Notes under the pieces: generated by a model
The model's input: the letters and a program-made list of their open reading frames with translations, nothing else
The model's database searches: none
What the model was told of the DNA's origin: nothing
Translations under genes and position numbers: made by a program
Source: Bacillota bacterium
GTDB taxonomy: Bacteria > Bacillota > Limnochordia > Limnochordales > ZCTH02-B6
Assembly (NCBI GenBank): GCA_017577945.1
Contig: PKQS01000010.1
Coordinates: 372,001 to 436,000, forward strand
Direction: 5' to 3'
DNA length: 64,000 bases
Shown: positions 59,211-64,000 of the stretch, in pieces
Position numbering within the stretch: the first letter of the stretch is position 1
How the letters are laid out: the number at the start of each line of letters is the position of its first letter

Positions 59211-59372
59211 CCGTTCTCGCTTCCCCTATACCGGGCATCTTGCCCGGGCTTCGCTTAGCCCGACCGATGAATTTCTCGTGCAGACAATGTTTTTCTTGTT
59301 TCGCCGAGGCCCCGCGTCGCCCTTCCTGCACTGGTGGTTTTTCCCTGGTGTTTGGGTCTTGACGAGGCTCCC

Positions 59373-59386
59373 CGAACATATGTTAG
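59373..59386. promoter_or_regulatory. LexA (SOS) box 1
   Basis: CGAACATATGTTAG matches the Gram-positive LexA site CGAAC-N4-GTTCG at 12 of 14 ways of pairing allowing N4 (last two bases differ). It lies between a TTGACG -35-like element at 59359-59364 and a TAGGAT -10-like element at 59384-59389, so bound LexA would block the promoter. Confidence 0.75.
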
Positions 59387-59398
59387 GATCTAAACCAC

Positions 59399-59412
59399 CG
59401 AACATATGATCG
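59399..59412. promoter_or_regulatory. LexA (SOS) box 2
   Basis: CGAACATATGATCG repeats the first ten bases of box 1 exactly, with a weaker right half, 26 bases further on. Two boxes on nearly the same DNA face (about 2.5 turns) suggest tight repression of the downstream mutagenesis cassette. Confidence 0.65.
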
Positions 59413-59434
59413 ATGCAGGTGGGGGCCGAACGCC

Positions 59435-60649
59435 GTGGCTGTCATCGCTTGTCTGCGCTGGCCGCCGGCGCTGATCCGTTCCGCCGACGGTACCGGCAAG
59501 TCTTTTCCCGATAGCGCCCGCGAGGCGATTTTGGACGTTTGCGCGCAGCTGACGCCCGTCGTCGAGCCGGGCGACGACTGCGTCTGGATGGACTGGACGG
59601 GATGCGGCGAGGCGGAGCGGCTGGCGGAAAAGCTTTCGGCAGCCTTGGCGCGCCTTAGCGGAGCGCCGGCCGCCGCGGAGCGGGCGGCGGCGCGTTCGCC
59701 TGCTTCTCCCGGCGGCTGGCACTGCCGCCTGGGCGTTGCGCCGCTTCGTTTCGTGGCCGGCGCTCTTGCTGTGGGCGACCTGGCACCGGTCGTGGCGGAC
59801 TTGGCGGCAGTGCAAAGCGCCGTTCAGCCGATAGAGCTTCCGTTTGTCCGCGGCTTTCGCGTGACAGAAGAAGGCCTGCCCCGTCTGCTGCCGGCGCTGC
59901 GCCTGCGGGCTTTGCGGGAGCTGGACGCGGAGGCGCGCGCGACGCTGGCGGCGCTGGATGTGCACACGCTGGGCGACCTGGCTGGTTTTCCGCCGGAGCT
60001 GCTGTACGGCCACGTAGGCCGCGCCGCCGATGCGCTGCTGGAGTGGGCCGCGGGGCGGGATGCGCGGCGCGTGCGGGCGCTGTATCCGCCGGCGCGGCTG
60101 GAGCAGCGCATTTCCGCCGAGGAGCTGGGCTTGAGTTGCGGCGGGAGCGCCGGCGCGCCGGCCGACGCCTCCCGCGTCCAACAAGCGGTTTTCCGGGCGG
60201 CGGAGCAGTTGGGCGCGGAGCTGGAGCGTTCCCGCCGCGCTTGCTCGGCCGCGGTCGTGGCCATTGGAGCCCGCCGCGTGGCGCGCTCGTTCACCCCGCC
60301 CGTCGCGGCGGCCGATCAGCTGGGCCGGGTGCTTTGGCACATGGTGCAGCGGCTGCTGGCCGAAGCGGCGCAGCCGGACGCCGGCGCCGCGTCAAAAGAT
60401 CTCCGCGACGACTGCGTCATCGCCGTTACGCCGGCGCCTTACACAGGCAGGCAGACGACGCTTTTCTCGGCAGGCCGCCTTGACGTTCCGCAAAAAGAGC
60501 GCAAGCCGCACCCGCTGGAGTGCCCGGCGCTGGCCGCGATTCGTGCCCGCTTCGGCCCCTGGCTGCGCCTCTGCGCGGCCGAAGCCGGCCCCGGCGTTTG
60601 CCGGGAAGCGGTGGCCCGCTACGAAGCCATGCGGCAGTTTTACTCCTGA
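59435..60649 (+). CDS. imuB: ImuB-like Y-family polymerase homologue (non-catalytic adaptor)
   Basis: The 404-residue protein aligns by motif with the middle and C-terminal part of ImuB/Y-family polymerases: VVEPGDDCVWMDWTGCGEAERLAEKL, WHCRLGVAPLRFVAGA, and the thumb region LRELDAEARATLAALDVHTLGDLAGFPPELLYGHVG. The N-terminal palm segment with the first catalytic aspartate is missing, so it should not polymerise DNA. A clamp-binding pentapeptide QTTLF lies at residues 340-344. In known systems ImuB bridges the sliding clamp and DnaE2. GTG 59435 is preceded by GTGGGGG. The gene lies behind two LexA boxes and ahead of a DUF6504-like gene and dnaE2. ImuA is not present. Confidence 0.8.
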   Translation: MAVIACLRWPPALIRSADGTGKSFPDSAREAILDVCAQLTPVVEPGDDCVWMDWTGCGEAERLAEKLSAALARLSGAPAAAERAAARSPASPGGWHCRLGVAPLRFVAGALAVGDLAPVVADLAAVQSAVQPIELPFVRGFRVTEEGLPRLLPALRLRALRELDAEARATLAALDVHTLGDLAGFPPELLYGHVGRAADALLEWAAGRDARRVRALYPPARLEQRISAEELGLSCGGSAGAPADASRVQQAVFRAAEQLGAELERSRRACSAAVVAIGARRVARSFTPPVAAADQLGRVLWHMVQRLLAEAAQPDAGAASKDLRDDCVIAVTPAPYTGRQTTLFSAGRLDVPQKERKPHPLECPALAAIRARFGPWLRLCAAEAGPGVCREAVARYEAMRQFYS

Positions 60650-60705
60650 AGCCCAGACGCTTGCCGTGCGGCGCTCCTGCTTGCGCGGCGGCCAGCGAGG
60701 TGTTG

Positions 60706-60960
60706 GTGGTGCGCCTCGTTGACGTGCCGGTGCGGGTCACGCTGAACGGAAGCAACGAGCCGCAGCCGACGGCCTTTCAATGGCGCGGGCGCACGCACCG
60801 CATCGCCCGCATCGTGGACCACTGGCGCTACGTCGGCCGCTGGTGGCTCGGCGAAGGCGAGTGGCGCTTCGTCAAGGTCGAGACGACCGACGGCGGCGTG
60901 TTCGAGCTGTATTTCGACGCCAAAGCCGCCGAGTGGAGGCTCTACCGCGTCTATGACTGA
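60706..60960 (+). CDS. DUF6504-like small protein between imuB and dnaE2
   Basis: The roughly 84-residue protein reads VPVRVTLNGSNEPQPTAFQWRGRTHRIARIVDHWRYVG in its first half and ends ELYFDAKAAEWRLYRVYD. Rich in Trp, Arg and Tyr and all beta-like, it resembles DUF6504 proteins that are found beside imuB/dnaE2 in actinobacteria. Start is uncertain among GTG 60700, 60706 and 60709; GAGG precedes. Its stop overlaps the dnaE2 start, so it is translated with the polymerase. Role unknown, probably in translesion synthesis. Confidence 0.75.
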   Translation: MVRLVDVPVRVTLNGSNEPQPTAFQWRGRTHRIARIVDHWRYVGRWWLGEGEWRFVKVETTDGGVFELYFDAKAAEWRLYRVYD

Positions 60961-63900
60961 GCCGTTCGTCCACCTGCACGTCCATTCGCCTTTTTCCTTT
61001 CTGGACGGCGCGGCTTCCGTCGAGGATCTCGTCCGGCGGGCCGCGGCGCTGGATATGCCCGCGCTGGCCCTTACCGACCACGACAACGTCAGCGGCGCGG
61101 TCCGCTTCGTGCAGGCATGCCGGGAAGCCGGCATCAAACCGATCATCGGCTGCGAGCTGACGCTGGAAGGCGGCTTCCATCTCACGGTGCTGGCGGCGTC
61201 GCCGAAGGGATACGCCAACTTGTGCCGCCTGCTGACCGCGGCCCACCTGCACAACGAGCGGGGCCAGCCGCGCACGTCCTGGGACAGCCTTCTCCAATAC
61301 AGCGAAGACCTGATCGTCTTGTCCGGCTGCGTCAAGGGCGAAATCGCCGCGCGGATCCGCGAGCGGCGCTACGCAGAAGCCGAGCGCGCCGCACGCCGCT
61401 ATGCGGCCGCCTTCGGGCGAGAGCGCTTCTTCCTGGAGCTGCAGGCCACCGAGCTGCCCGGCCAGCTGGCGGTCAACCGCGCCTTGGCGGAGCTGGCCGC
61501 GCGCATCGGCGTGGAAACGGTCGCGACGGGCAACGTCCATTATGCCGTCCGCGAGCAGCACCCGATTCACGACGTGCTGCGTTGCATCGCGGCCGGCGTG
61601 ACCGTCTACGACCCGCATCCAAGCCGCCCGTTCAACGATCAGCTGTACCTGATCGAGCCGGAGGAGATGCGCCGGCGGTTCGCGTGGCTGCCGCGCGCCG
61701 TCGCCAACGCCACCGCCATCGCGGAGCGCTGCCAGCTCGCGCTCATCCTGGGCCAGCCGCGCCATCCCCGCTTCACGCTGCGGGACGAGCACGGCCGCGA
61801 ACAACGCGTCGATGCCGACGCGCTGCTGGCGCAGCTGACATGGGAAGGCGCCCGGCGCCGCTACGGGAAAATTTCCGAAGCGCTCCGGCGGCGCATCGAG
61901 GAAGAGTTGACCATCATCCGCCGGCTGGCGATGGCCGACTATTTCCTCGTCGCTTGGGACGTCGTGCAGTTTGCCAAGAGCCGGGGCATCCGTTCCAGCG
62001 GCCGCGGCTCGGCGGCCGACTCGGTGGTGGCCTACTGCCTCGGCCTCACCAACGTCGACGCGTTCAAGCGCGGGCTCAGCTTCGAGCGGTTCTTGTCCGT
62101 CGAGCGGGGCGAGCCGCCGGATATCGACATCGACTTCGAGGCCCACCGGCGCGACGAAGTGGCCGCGTACGTCTTCGAGCGCTACGGCCGGGATCACGTG
62201 GCCGCCGTGGCCACCTACCACACGTACCACGCCCGGGGCGCTCTGCGGGAAGTGGGCAAAGCGCTGGGGCTGCCGGCGGAAGAGATCGACGAAGTGGTCA
62301 AGCGCATGCCCCACGTGCCTGCCGACGCCATCGAGCGCGCCCTGCGCCATTACCCCGAGCTGCGCCCCCTCGAGGAAACGCTGGTAAAAGACGAGCTGCG
62401 CCGCCGCTGGCTGCAGCTGGCGCAGGCGCTGGCCGGCTTGCCGCGGCATCTGGGCACCCACAGCAGCGGGCTCGTCATCAGCGCGGAGCCCTTGACCGAG
62501 GTGACGCCGCTGCAAATGGCGGCCAAAGGCGTGCCGGTGAGCCAGTTCGACAAAGACGACGTGGAAGCGCTGGGCCTGATGAAGCTGGACTTGCTCTTTT
62601 TGCGCATGCTGGCCGCGGTCAACACGTCGGCCGAAGCCATCCGCCGGCGCGACCCGTCTTTCGACTACGATCAAATCCCCGACGAAGACGCCCGCACGTA
62701 CAAGCGGCTGCGGCGCGGCGACACCATCGGCGCGTTCCAGCTGGAATCGCCCGCCCAGCGGGCGCTGCATCCGCGGCTCAAGCCCCGCACCTTCGAAGAC
62801 ATCGTCGCGTCCGTCGCGCTCATCCGCCCCGGGCCCATCAAAGGCGACATGGTCAAGCCTTTCATCGCCCGGCGCAACGGCGAAGAGCCCGTCACGTACG
62901 TGCACCCGAAGCTGGAGCCGATCCTGAAGAAGACGTACGGGGTGGTGTTGTTTCAGGAGCAAATCATCGAGATCGCCCGGACCATCGCGGGGTTCACCCC
63001 CGGCGAGGCGGACCGGCTGCGGCGCGCCATGTCGTCGTTCCGCTCGCAGGCGGAAATGGACCGCATCGGCGAGCAGTTTATCGCCAAAGCTATCGCCAAC
63101 GGCTGCGAGCCCGGCGTGGCCCGCACCATCTTCGGCTACATCGCCGCCTACGCCGGCTACGGCTTCTGCGAAGCCCACGCGGCCTCGTTCGCGGACATCG
63201 CCTACAAGACCGCGTACTTGCTGGAGCACTACCCGGCCGAGTTTTACGCGGCGCTGCTGTCGCATCAGCCGATGGGGTACTATCCGCCCAATACGCTTTT
63301 GTGGGAAGCCAAGCGCAGGGGCGTCAAGGCGCTGGGCGTCTGCATCAACCGCAGCGAAGCGCACTTTACGGTCGAATACCTCGCTGAGCCGTCGCCGGCC
63401 AACGGCGCACCGAGCGACGGCGGCCGGGCGGACGCCGGCTTGCGTCCCGCCATTCGCGTCGGCCTGCGCCAAGTGCGGGCGCTGAGCCAGGAAACGCTGG
63501 CGGCCATCCTCGCCGCGCGGCGCGACGGACCGTTTACGTCGCTGGCCGACTTTTGCCGCCGAGTTCCGCCGCTGACCGCCGAAGAAGCCGAGCAGCTGGT
63601 GCTGGCCGGCGCTTTCGACGCGCTCAGCGCCAACCGCCGCGCCCTGCTTTGGCAGCTGCCCGAGGCGCTGCGGCGCGGCCGAGAGGCGCGGGAAAGCCAG
63701 CGCCGCTGGGACGTATCCGCCCCGGCGACCGGCGTCTCCATCGACGATTTTCCTCCCTTTGAGCGCGACGTGCGGGAATATTACGCCCTAGGGCTAACGA
63801 TCGAACGCCACCTCGTGGAACACTTCCGGCCCCAGCTGCGCCGCCGCGGGGCGCTGCCGTGCGCCGAGGCGCGCCGGCTGCCGAAAGGTCGCCAAGTCAC

Positions 63901-64000
63901 CGTCGGCGGTTTGTGCATCCGGCCGCACCGCCCGCCGACGAAAAGCGGCCGCACCGTCGTCTTCCTCACGCTGGAAGACGAGACGGGGCTGATTGACGTT
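60953..64000 (+). CDS. dnaE2: Error-prone DNA polymerase DnaE2 (3' end beyond window)
   Basis: The frame runs from ATG 60953 through the window end, 1016 codons so far, close to the usual 1030-1080. It has an N-terminal PHP domain (HLHVHSPFSFLDG, ALTDHDNVSGAV), the polymerase aspartates in PPDIDIDFEAHRRDE (Asp392, Asp394) and MKLDLLFLRML (Asp546), then YGVVLFQEQIIEIA, SFRSQAEMDR, the helix-hairpin-helix region and the start of the OB fold at the end. PHP histidines look more complete than in replicative DnaE of Proteobacteria. DnaE2 is the mutagenic polymerase of the ImuB mutasome. ATGA overlap with the DUF6504-like gene links them. Confidence 0.93.
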   Translation, partial: MTEPFVHLHVHSPFSFLDGAASVEDLVRRAAALDMPALALTDHDNVSGAVRFVQACREAGIKPIIGCELTLEGGFHLTVLAASPKGYANLCRLLTAAHLHNERGQPRTSWDSLLQYSEDLIVLSGCVKGEIAARIRERRYAEAERAARRYAAAFGRERFFLELQATELPGQLAVNRALAELAARIGVETVATGNVHYAVREQHPIHDVLRCIAAGVTVYDPHPSRPFNDQLYLIEPEEMRRRFAWLPRAVANATAIAERCQLALILGQPRHPRFTLRDEHGREQRVDADALLAQLTWEGARRRYGKISEALRRRIEEELTIIRRLAMADYFLVAWDVVQFAKSRGIRSSGRGSAADSVVAYCLGLTNVDAFKRGLSFERFLSVERGEPPDIDIDFEAHRRDEVAAYVFERYGRDHVAAVATYHTYHARGALREVGKALGLPAEEIDEVVKRMPHVPADAIERALRHYPELRPLEETLVKDELRRRWLQLAQALAGLPRHLGTHSSGLVISAEPLTEVTPLQMAAKGVPVSQFDKDDVEALGLMKLDLLFLRMLAAVNTSAEAIRRRDPSFDYDQIPDEDARTYKRLRRGDTIGAFQLESPAQRALHPRLKPRTFEDIVASVALIRPGPIKGDMVKPFIARRNGEEPVTYVHPKLEPILKKTYGVVLFQEQIIEIARTIAGFTPGEADRLRRAMSSFRSQAEMDRIGEQFIAKAIANGCEPGVARTIFGYIAAYAGYGFCEAHAASFADIAYKTAYLLEHYPAEFYAALLSHQPMGYYPPNTLLWEAKRRGVKALGVCINRSEAHFTVEYLAEPSPANGAPSDGGRADAGLRPAIRVGLRQVRALSQETLAAILAARRDGPFTSLADFCRRVPPLTAEEAEQLVLAGAFDALSANRRALLWQLPEALRRGREARESQRRWDVSAPATGVSIDDFPPFERDVREYYALGLTIERHLVEHFRPQLRRRGALPCAEARRLPKGRQVTVGGLCIRPHRPPTKSGRTVVFLTLEDETGLIDV

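Follow-up and report, generated by a model that had tools for sequence, protein, structure and literature searches.

Organization of the locus

We examined the end of a 64,000-nucleotide stretch of DNA (the window; bases 372001-436000 of contig C10) from a 1.96-Mb, 95% complete assembly of a bacterium of the order Limnochordales, in which two LexA-type boxes are followed by genes for a Y-family polymerase-like protein (iPolY, also called ImuY), a small DUF6504 protein and the error-prone C-family polymerase DnaE2, in that order and as one apparent operon. An earlier reading of the letters alone (the sequence-only reading) had placed two LexA-type boxes before ImuB-like, DUF6504-like and DnaE2 genes, and this was borne out by the coordinates, by the match to PF20114 and by the placement of the proteins on ImuB profiles. 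The parts are as follows.

59359-59389, + strand: possible promoter, TTGACG (59359-59364), 19-nt spacer, TAGGAT (59384-59389); weak, picked by eye; overlapped by box 1
59373-59386, no strand assigned: LexA-type box 1, CGAACATATGTTAG; 9/10 fixed positions of CGAAC-N4-GTTCG
59399-59412, no strand assigned: LexA-type box 2, CGAACATATGATCG; pattern match; spacing of the pair kept in the family
59435-60649, + strand: iPolY/ImuY, GTG start, 404 aa; Y-family protein that lacks the catalytic pair, is shortened at the N-terminus and makes up the front of a split ImuB
59579-59584, + strand: CV (residues 49-50) at the catalytic D-E position of active PolY, from alignment with the genome's own DinB
60452-60466, + strand: QTTLF (residues 340-344), likely beta-clamp-binding motif; found by eye
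60527-60559, + strand: ALAAIRARFGP (residues 365-375), match to the helix half of a RecA-NT motif whose strand half has diverged; from a hidden Markov model (HMM), 12/1000 shuffles as high
60709-60960, + strand: standalone ImuB-C (DUF6504, PF20114), GTG start, 83 aa, predicted beta-barrel
60953-64000, + strand, continuing past the window: DnaE2 error-prone C-family polymerase, ATG start, 1060 aa

The DnaE2 frame stops 135 nt beyond the window end. An overlap between the DUF6504 and DnaE2 genes exists as had been stated, but it is 8 nt long, ATGACTGA, and not ATGA. For comparison we used 14 Limnochordales genomes, including the window's own. Five belong to the same family; four of these carry the cassette (the genome of the window, G307, G308 and G215), and the fifth, G306, gave no DUF6504 match.

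The DUF6504 protein corresponds to the C-terminal domain of ImuB

The small protein of the window matched PF20114 with 50.9 bits (cut-off 24.2). When 14 DUF6504 proteins were compared with ImuB by hhalign, they fell on ImuB columns 421-511 of 515 (94.6%, E 6.4e-8), while 12 iPolYs, the window's included, compared with 7 ImuBs occupied columns 6-396 of 515 (99.7%, E 2.6e-25). Since the two placements fall on the front part and the tail of ImuB, the first two genes are, by profile comparison, one ImuB split in two, and DUF6504 (PF20114) is the ImuB-C domain. Conversely, PF20114 was found above its cut-off at the C-terminus of three of nine ImuB-type proteins (Chelativorans 429-502, Azospirillum 444-516 and Acetobacter 381-461), and the full-length Chelativorans ImuB, which sits between ImuA and DnaE2, itself carries the NCBI name 'DUF6504 family protein'. 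The predicted model of the window protein (predicted local distance difference test score, pLDDT, 92) reads from its strands as a beta-barrel. A search of the PDB with this model gave no relative at E 0.001, and ImuB-C is likewise reported to be without PDB relatives in PMC12926913. PMC3765255 gives as hallmarks of ImuB-C a tryptophan conserved near the C-terminal end and a pair of conserved positive residues; W76 was invariant in both the 12-row and the 14-row alignment, and a single near-invariant positive residue, R44, was found with no second. The window protein belongs to the ImuB-C superfamily described there, and we saw no essential difference from it. A literature search for DUF6504 by that name returned no match.

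Further standalone DUF6504/ImuB-C genes (L079, L080, L081, L082 and L089) were seen in G301, G190, G307 (two) and G302, and no DnaE2 or PolY was found in the 3.6-12 kb stretches around them. At one locus from an Acetobacteraceae metagenome-assembled genome (MAG; L112), an iPolY-like protein is followed by an ImuB-C 46% identical to that of the window, with no DnaE2 in the stretch examined; this locus possibly reflects transfer or a binning error.

iPolY is a reduced Y-family protein that has lost the catalytic pair

Pfam did not recognize the window iPolY, and NCBIfam returned only weak matches to DNA polymerase IV families; since these were insufficient on their own, iPolY was placed by the profile comparison given above and by fold. 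The AlphaFold model (mean pLDDT 76) had its best PDB matches in Dpo4 and Pol IV (E 2e-11). Among the top 50 matches the template modelling (TM) score to the query was 0.31-0.39 and the root-mean-square deviation 12-17 A, so the domains match and not the whole protein. When aligned with the DinB of the window's genome, none of 20 iPolYs kept the catalytic D-E pair. The window protein has 48 residues before the catalytic position and its three family relatives 31 each, against 95 in the genome's own DinB (first residues trimmed); most of the first palm/fingers segment is lost in the window and its family and retained in G302, G303 and several named relatives. From its sequence, iPolY is thus a Y-family protein whose active site is broken and whose N-terminal part is reduced. 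The QTTLF string, a likely beta-clamp-binding motif, has similar Q-x-x-L strings in several relatives.

Two LexA-type boxes precede the operon

The pattern CGAACATATG has three sites in the 1.96-Mb assembly, two at the cassette and one upstream of lexA. Because the reversed control of this pattern also occurs twice, the evidence lies in the location of the boxes and not in their count. The pattern GAACNNNNGTTC occurs 18 times genome-wide against 13 for its control, a small excess. Single boxes with 9/10 positions are not rare, with 10 in the window against a mean of 2.4 and a maximum of 9 for scrambled palindromes, so that the weight rests on the pair, its place and its conservation. All four cassettes found in the family have the pair, its boxes standing at about -60 and -34 with a distance of 26 bp. 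Across the order, each of the 13 cassettes has one or more boxes matching at 9/10 positions or better close to the iPolY start; in two of the 13 the start codon was shifted inward for this count, and in two further ones, near-copies of each other, the box lies just inside the mechanical start. These observations support LexA control of the cassette.

Upstream of the genome's own lexA (L134, G000:C9:299000-303000) we observed three LexA-type boxes at about -158, -126 and -87 from the family match. The genome's own recA had no GAAC-N4-GTTC within about 400 nt before the recA match.

The cassette is conserved in the order and its DnaE2 forms a distinct clade

DUF6504 was found in 13 of the 14 genomes of the order, each time with DnaE2 just downstream and a PolY-like open reading frame (ORF) just upstream; phmmer from the window iPolY found 5 of 12 such ORFs, and the remaining 7 were initially assigned from their position. 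In a sample of the phylum, 73 of 299 genomes contained DUF6504. Thirty of these loci, our own included, were inspected with flanks of up to 1.5 kb: 14 had DnaE, 14 had iPolY and 11 had both. At 13 named DUF6504 loci, four of which belong to the genomes G301, G307, G308 and G215, DnaE2 lies downstream in 12, once in broken frames. The named relatives come from Bacillota MAGs and one Limnochordaceae MAG, and also from Latescibacterota and Zipacnadia MAGs with DnaE2. Our literature search gave no match for a limnochord with DnaE2.

The window DnaE2 matched the NCBIfam family 'error-prone DNA polymerase' with 978 bits (cut-off 939), and the genome also encodes PolC, a DnaE and a DinB. In the trees the 20 cassette DnaE2s grouped together (100/99), and the remaining DnaE2 rows, three of them with an adjacent ImuA, fell outside this clade. 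The outgroup was one replicative DnaE, so the tree says nothing on whether all DnaE2 form one group; in the second tree Strep_dnaE and PolC were omitted.

No ImuA lies beside the cassette

ImuA is a relative of RecA, and RecA has been proposed as its substitute (PMC6511836, PMC12926913); ImuA binds the RecA-NT motif of ImuB (PMC11791113, PMC12926913). We built an ImuA profile from 8 ImuA-slot proteins, 4 of them annotated ImuA, and used it together with a Kitasatospora ImuA-slot protein as probes. Neither found an ImuA in the window or in the 8-12 kb around 13 cassettes, in keeping with the earlier statement that none lies at the locus. With the profile, RecA was the best match in 13 of the 14 genomes of the order (three of these single-contig), and there was no match in G302; G303 gave a weak second match (E 0.016) that is not RecA-like. 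The genome-wide search for ImuA/RecA and LexA, also suggested in the sequence-only reading, returned for the window's own genome RecA only, with a profile that missed the actinobacterial type of ImuA and in an assembly 95% complete, and a lexA with the three boxes described above. Three weak PF00154 matches in this genome were not returned by the ImuA profile. Thus LexA control and a DnaE2 mutasome with no neighbouring ImuA are supported by the location of the boxes, by their conservation and by the negative results of the ImuA probes.

As a separate observation, the megaplasmid of Thermomicrobium roseum (L097:1715-7180) carries a RecA-like protein (PF00154), a PolY-like protein and DnaE2 in a row, with the annotations 'recombinase A' and 'hypothetical protein' at this locus; the RecA-like protein is possibly an ImuA close to RecA.

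A probable RecA-NT motif in the iPolY group, apparently decaying in the family

The pooled C-termini of 20 iPolYs were compared profile to profile with RecA. They matched RecA residues 5-35 with E 8.5e-4 (probability 23.7%) and the RecA N-terminal fragment with E 2.1e-5 (76.9%), and the reversed controls gave 0.095 and 0.63; four RecA rows that lacked the pattern were omitted from this alignment, as were duplicate RecA sequences, and 28 tail residues of L114 and L115 were cut. A first hhalign comparison of the 20 iPolYs with untrimmed RecA frames had given a probability of 2.7%. An HMM built from 15 iPolYs outside the family (L087 was omitted as a near-copy of L086) located the motif correctly in the RecA and the DinB of the window's genome, with none of 1000 shuffles as good. 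Within the family, the helix half with its FG is kept in three of the four members (window, G307 and G308). An HMM from the order's RecA N-termini only, a profile that is too narrow, found nothing in the window and reached 0/500 shuffles in 2 of the 20 iPolYs. As judged by these profiles, the RecA-NT motif appears to be present in the iPolY group and to be decaying, half eroded, in the family of the window.

Relation to described cassettes

Operons of this kind have already been described in Deinococcus and some Bacillota, and the cassette of the window is a further member. Aravind et al. (2013) list ImuB-C as a solo protein encoded next to DnaE2, together with an inactive DinB (PMC3765255). 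Timinskas and Venclovas (2019) describe a Kyrpidia tusciae operon of inactive PolY, ImuB-C and DnaE2 with no ImuA, and propose RecA in its stead (PMC6511836), and Timinskas et al. (2026) define a DnaE2X-iPolY-ImuBC-RecA complex with AlphaFold support (PMC12926913). The window cassette resembles this predicted complex in composition, in the split ImuB, in that no ImuA was found and in the PolC-type replication of its genome; it differs in the half-eroded RecA-NT motif, and Kyrpidia was compared by description only. The cassette DnaE2s are candidates for the X group, as distinct from the ImuA-linked DnaE2A: their clade stands apart in trees built without a named DnaE2X reference, and the D. deserti DnaE2 is not in it.

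In Deinococcus deserti the genes stand as lexA-imuY-imuB-C-dnaE2, ultraviolet (UV) mutagenesis needs ImuY, DnaE2 and RecA, and the genome is described as having no imuA; in D. ficus, UV mutagenesis is reported to be reduced without ImuY or DnaE2 (PMC8072749). In the D. deserti record, genes for LexA, a Y-family polymerase, DUF6504 and DnaE follow one another; the ImuB-C gene is annotated 'DUF6504 family protein', and its 80-aa product passes PF20114. The arrangement in the window is therefore not new, the D. deserti cassette having its genes in the same order. The two cassettes share an inactive Y-family protein, a standalone ImuB-C, DnaE2 and LexA control; the review describes no imuA in the Deinococcus genome (PMC8072749), and none was found beside the cassette here. 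They differ in that lexA is inside the operon there and elsewhere in our genome, and the identities to D. deserti are 35% over 65 aa for ImuB-C and 34% for DnaE2. With the canonical ImuA-ImuB-DnaE2 mutasome of Pseudomonadota and Actinomycetota the window shares DnaE2, a dead Y-family partner, the ImuB-C domain and LexA control, whereas its ImuB is split with no fused ImuB-C, no ImuA was found and its DnaE2 falls in another clade. What is new here is the occurrence of the cassette in the order Limnochordales, a twin-box promoter kept in one family and an iPolY short of palm and fingers.

Interpretation and alternatives

We interpret the cassette as an SOS-controlled translesion operon of the ImuY/iPolY - ImuB-C - DnaE2 type with RecA probably in the seat of ImuA, and from the sequence comparisons we put the probability of this reading at about 0.85. 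In the scheme that we infer for this organism, LexA bound to the two boxes would keep the operon shut, and DNA damage would lead through RecA filaments to LexA self-cleavage and to induction, with the three proteins made together. The dead Y-family protein would hold the beta clamp via QTTLF and, with ImuB-C, dock DnaE2; the complex so formed would be mutagenic through error-prone synthesis by DnaE2. A RecA protomer, attached by way of the RecA-NT helix of iPolY, would probably fill the empty ImuA seat. In 2021 it was still called unknown whether RecA occupies this seat in ImuY cassettes (PMC8072749); the 2026 work predicts it from models (PMC12926913).

Several results weigh against this interpretation. 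PF20114 stayed below its cut-off in two of the nine ImuB-type proteins (Rhizobium and Cereibacter) and had no match in four (Burkholderia, Roseomonas, Thermomicrobium and Kitasatospora). The ImuA profile failed on the Kitasatospora plasmid ImuA-slot protein, one of three control records; the statement on ImuA is narrowed accordingly, and an actinobacterial-type ImuA may lie elsewhere in the genome. The HMM of 15 iPolYs gave only a weak signal in the family, covering the helix half only (as good in 12 of 1000 shuffles for the window, 18 for G308 and 21 for G307), and did not find the motif at the expected place in G215 or anywhere in D. deserti ImuY; the four family C-termini alone had no hhalign match to untrimmed RecA frames (E 0.86). 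Neither BLAST nor the HMM of the order showed similarity between D. deserti ImuY and the window iPolY, and the D. deserti DnaE2 fell outside the cassette clade, though on a very long branch. A sigma-70 promoter scan with spacers of 16-18 only found no site upstream of the cassette.

The erosion of the RecA-NT motif in the family leaves room for a minimal mutasome without ImuA or bound RecA, in which iPolY would be a clamp adaptor joining DnaE2 through ImuB-C and RecA would only cleave LexA. On this reading the iPolY of the family would have kept hardly anything beyond the thumb, the little finger, the clamp motif and one half of the RecA-NT helix. In its favour are the short stretch before the catalytic position and the state of the RecA-NT motif, which is half kept in the window, G307 and G308 and missing in G215, with none found in D. 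deserti ImuY. We nevertheless regard this as unlikely, because the helix half with FG persists in three of four family members and the motif is seen in the pooled group; UV mutagenesis in D. deserti needs RecA as well, though perhaps only through LexA (PMC8072749).

The proposal of the sequence-only reading that the small protein replaces ImuA as third partner is less probable still, and we rejected it as a candidate once the protein was identified as ImuB-C by hhalign and by the PF20114 matches to ImuB C-termini; as a detached ImuB tail it is not an ImuA stand-in. It does stand in a cassette where no ImuA was found, and in the published M. tuberculosis model ImuB-C contributes to ImuA binding and lies near the ImuA seat. 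Its largest contact in that model, however, is with DnaE2 (PMC12926913), and the ImuA seat is the RecA-NT motif of ImuB (PMC11791113, PMC12926913). Moreover, the ImuB C-terminus to which DUF6504 is homologous coexists with ImuA in ordinary cassettes, and a small predicted beta-barrel is not a RecA fold, so a functional replacement of ImuA appears very improbable. Least probable of all is a remnant cassette, decaying or fallen silent, as the reduction of iPolY and its failure to be recognised by Pfam might suggest: the three open frames lie close together, DnaE2 exceeds its family cut-off, boxes and gene order are kept across 13 genomes, and reduced ImuBs are described as common (PMC12926913).

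The result allows the label 'DUF6504 family protein' to be read as part of a mutasome when the gene lies beside PolY or DnaE2, and it extends the range of ImuA-less cassettes to a further Bacillota order, with PolC in the genome studied. iPolYs at successive degrees of reduction form a natural series in which to ask what segments of ImuB are required by a DnaE2 mutasome, and also whether RecA is needed beyond LexA cleavage, a point called unknown in 2021 (PMC8072749).

Neighbouring features

Upstream of the cassette, on the opposite strand, lie ORFs that by eye resemble an ATP-binding cassette (ABC) transporter. Past the window on contig C10, about 2.3 kb from the window end, there is an array resembling clustered regularly interspaced short palindromic repeats (CRISPR; L026:7515-9014) with about 23 repeats of GTTTCAATCCACGCGCCCGCGTGGGGCGCGAC at a spacing of 66-69 nt, which we take to look like type I-C; one spacer is duplicated in tandem (8313 and 8379), and the array extends to the contig end.

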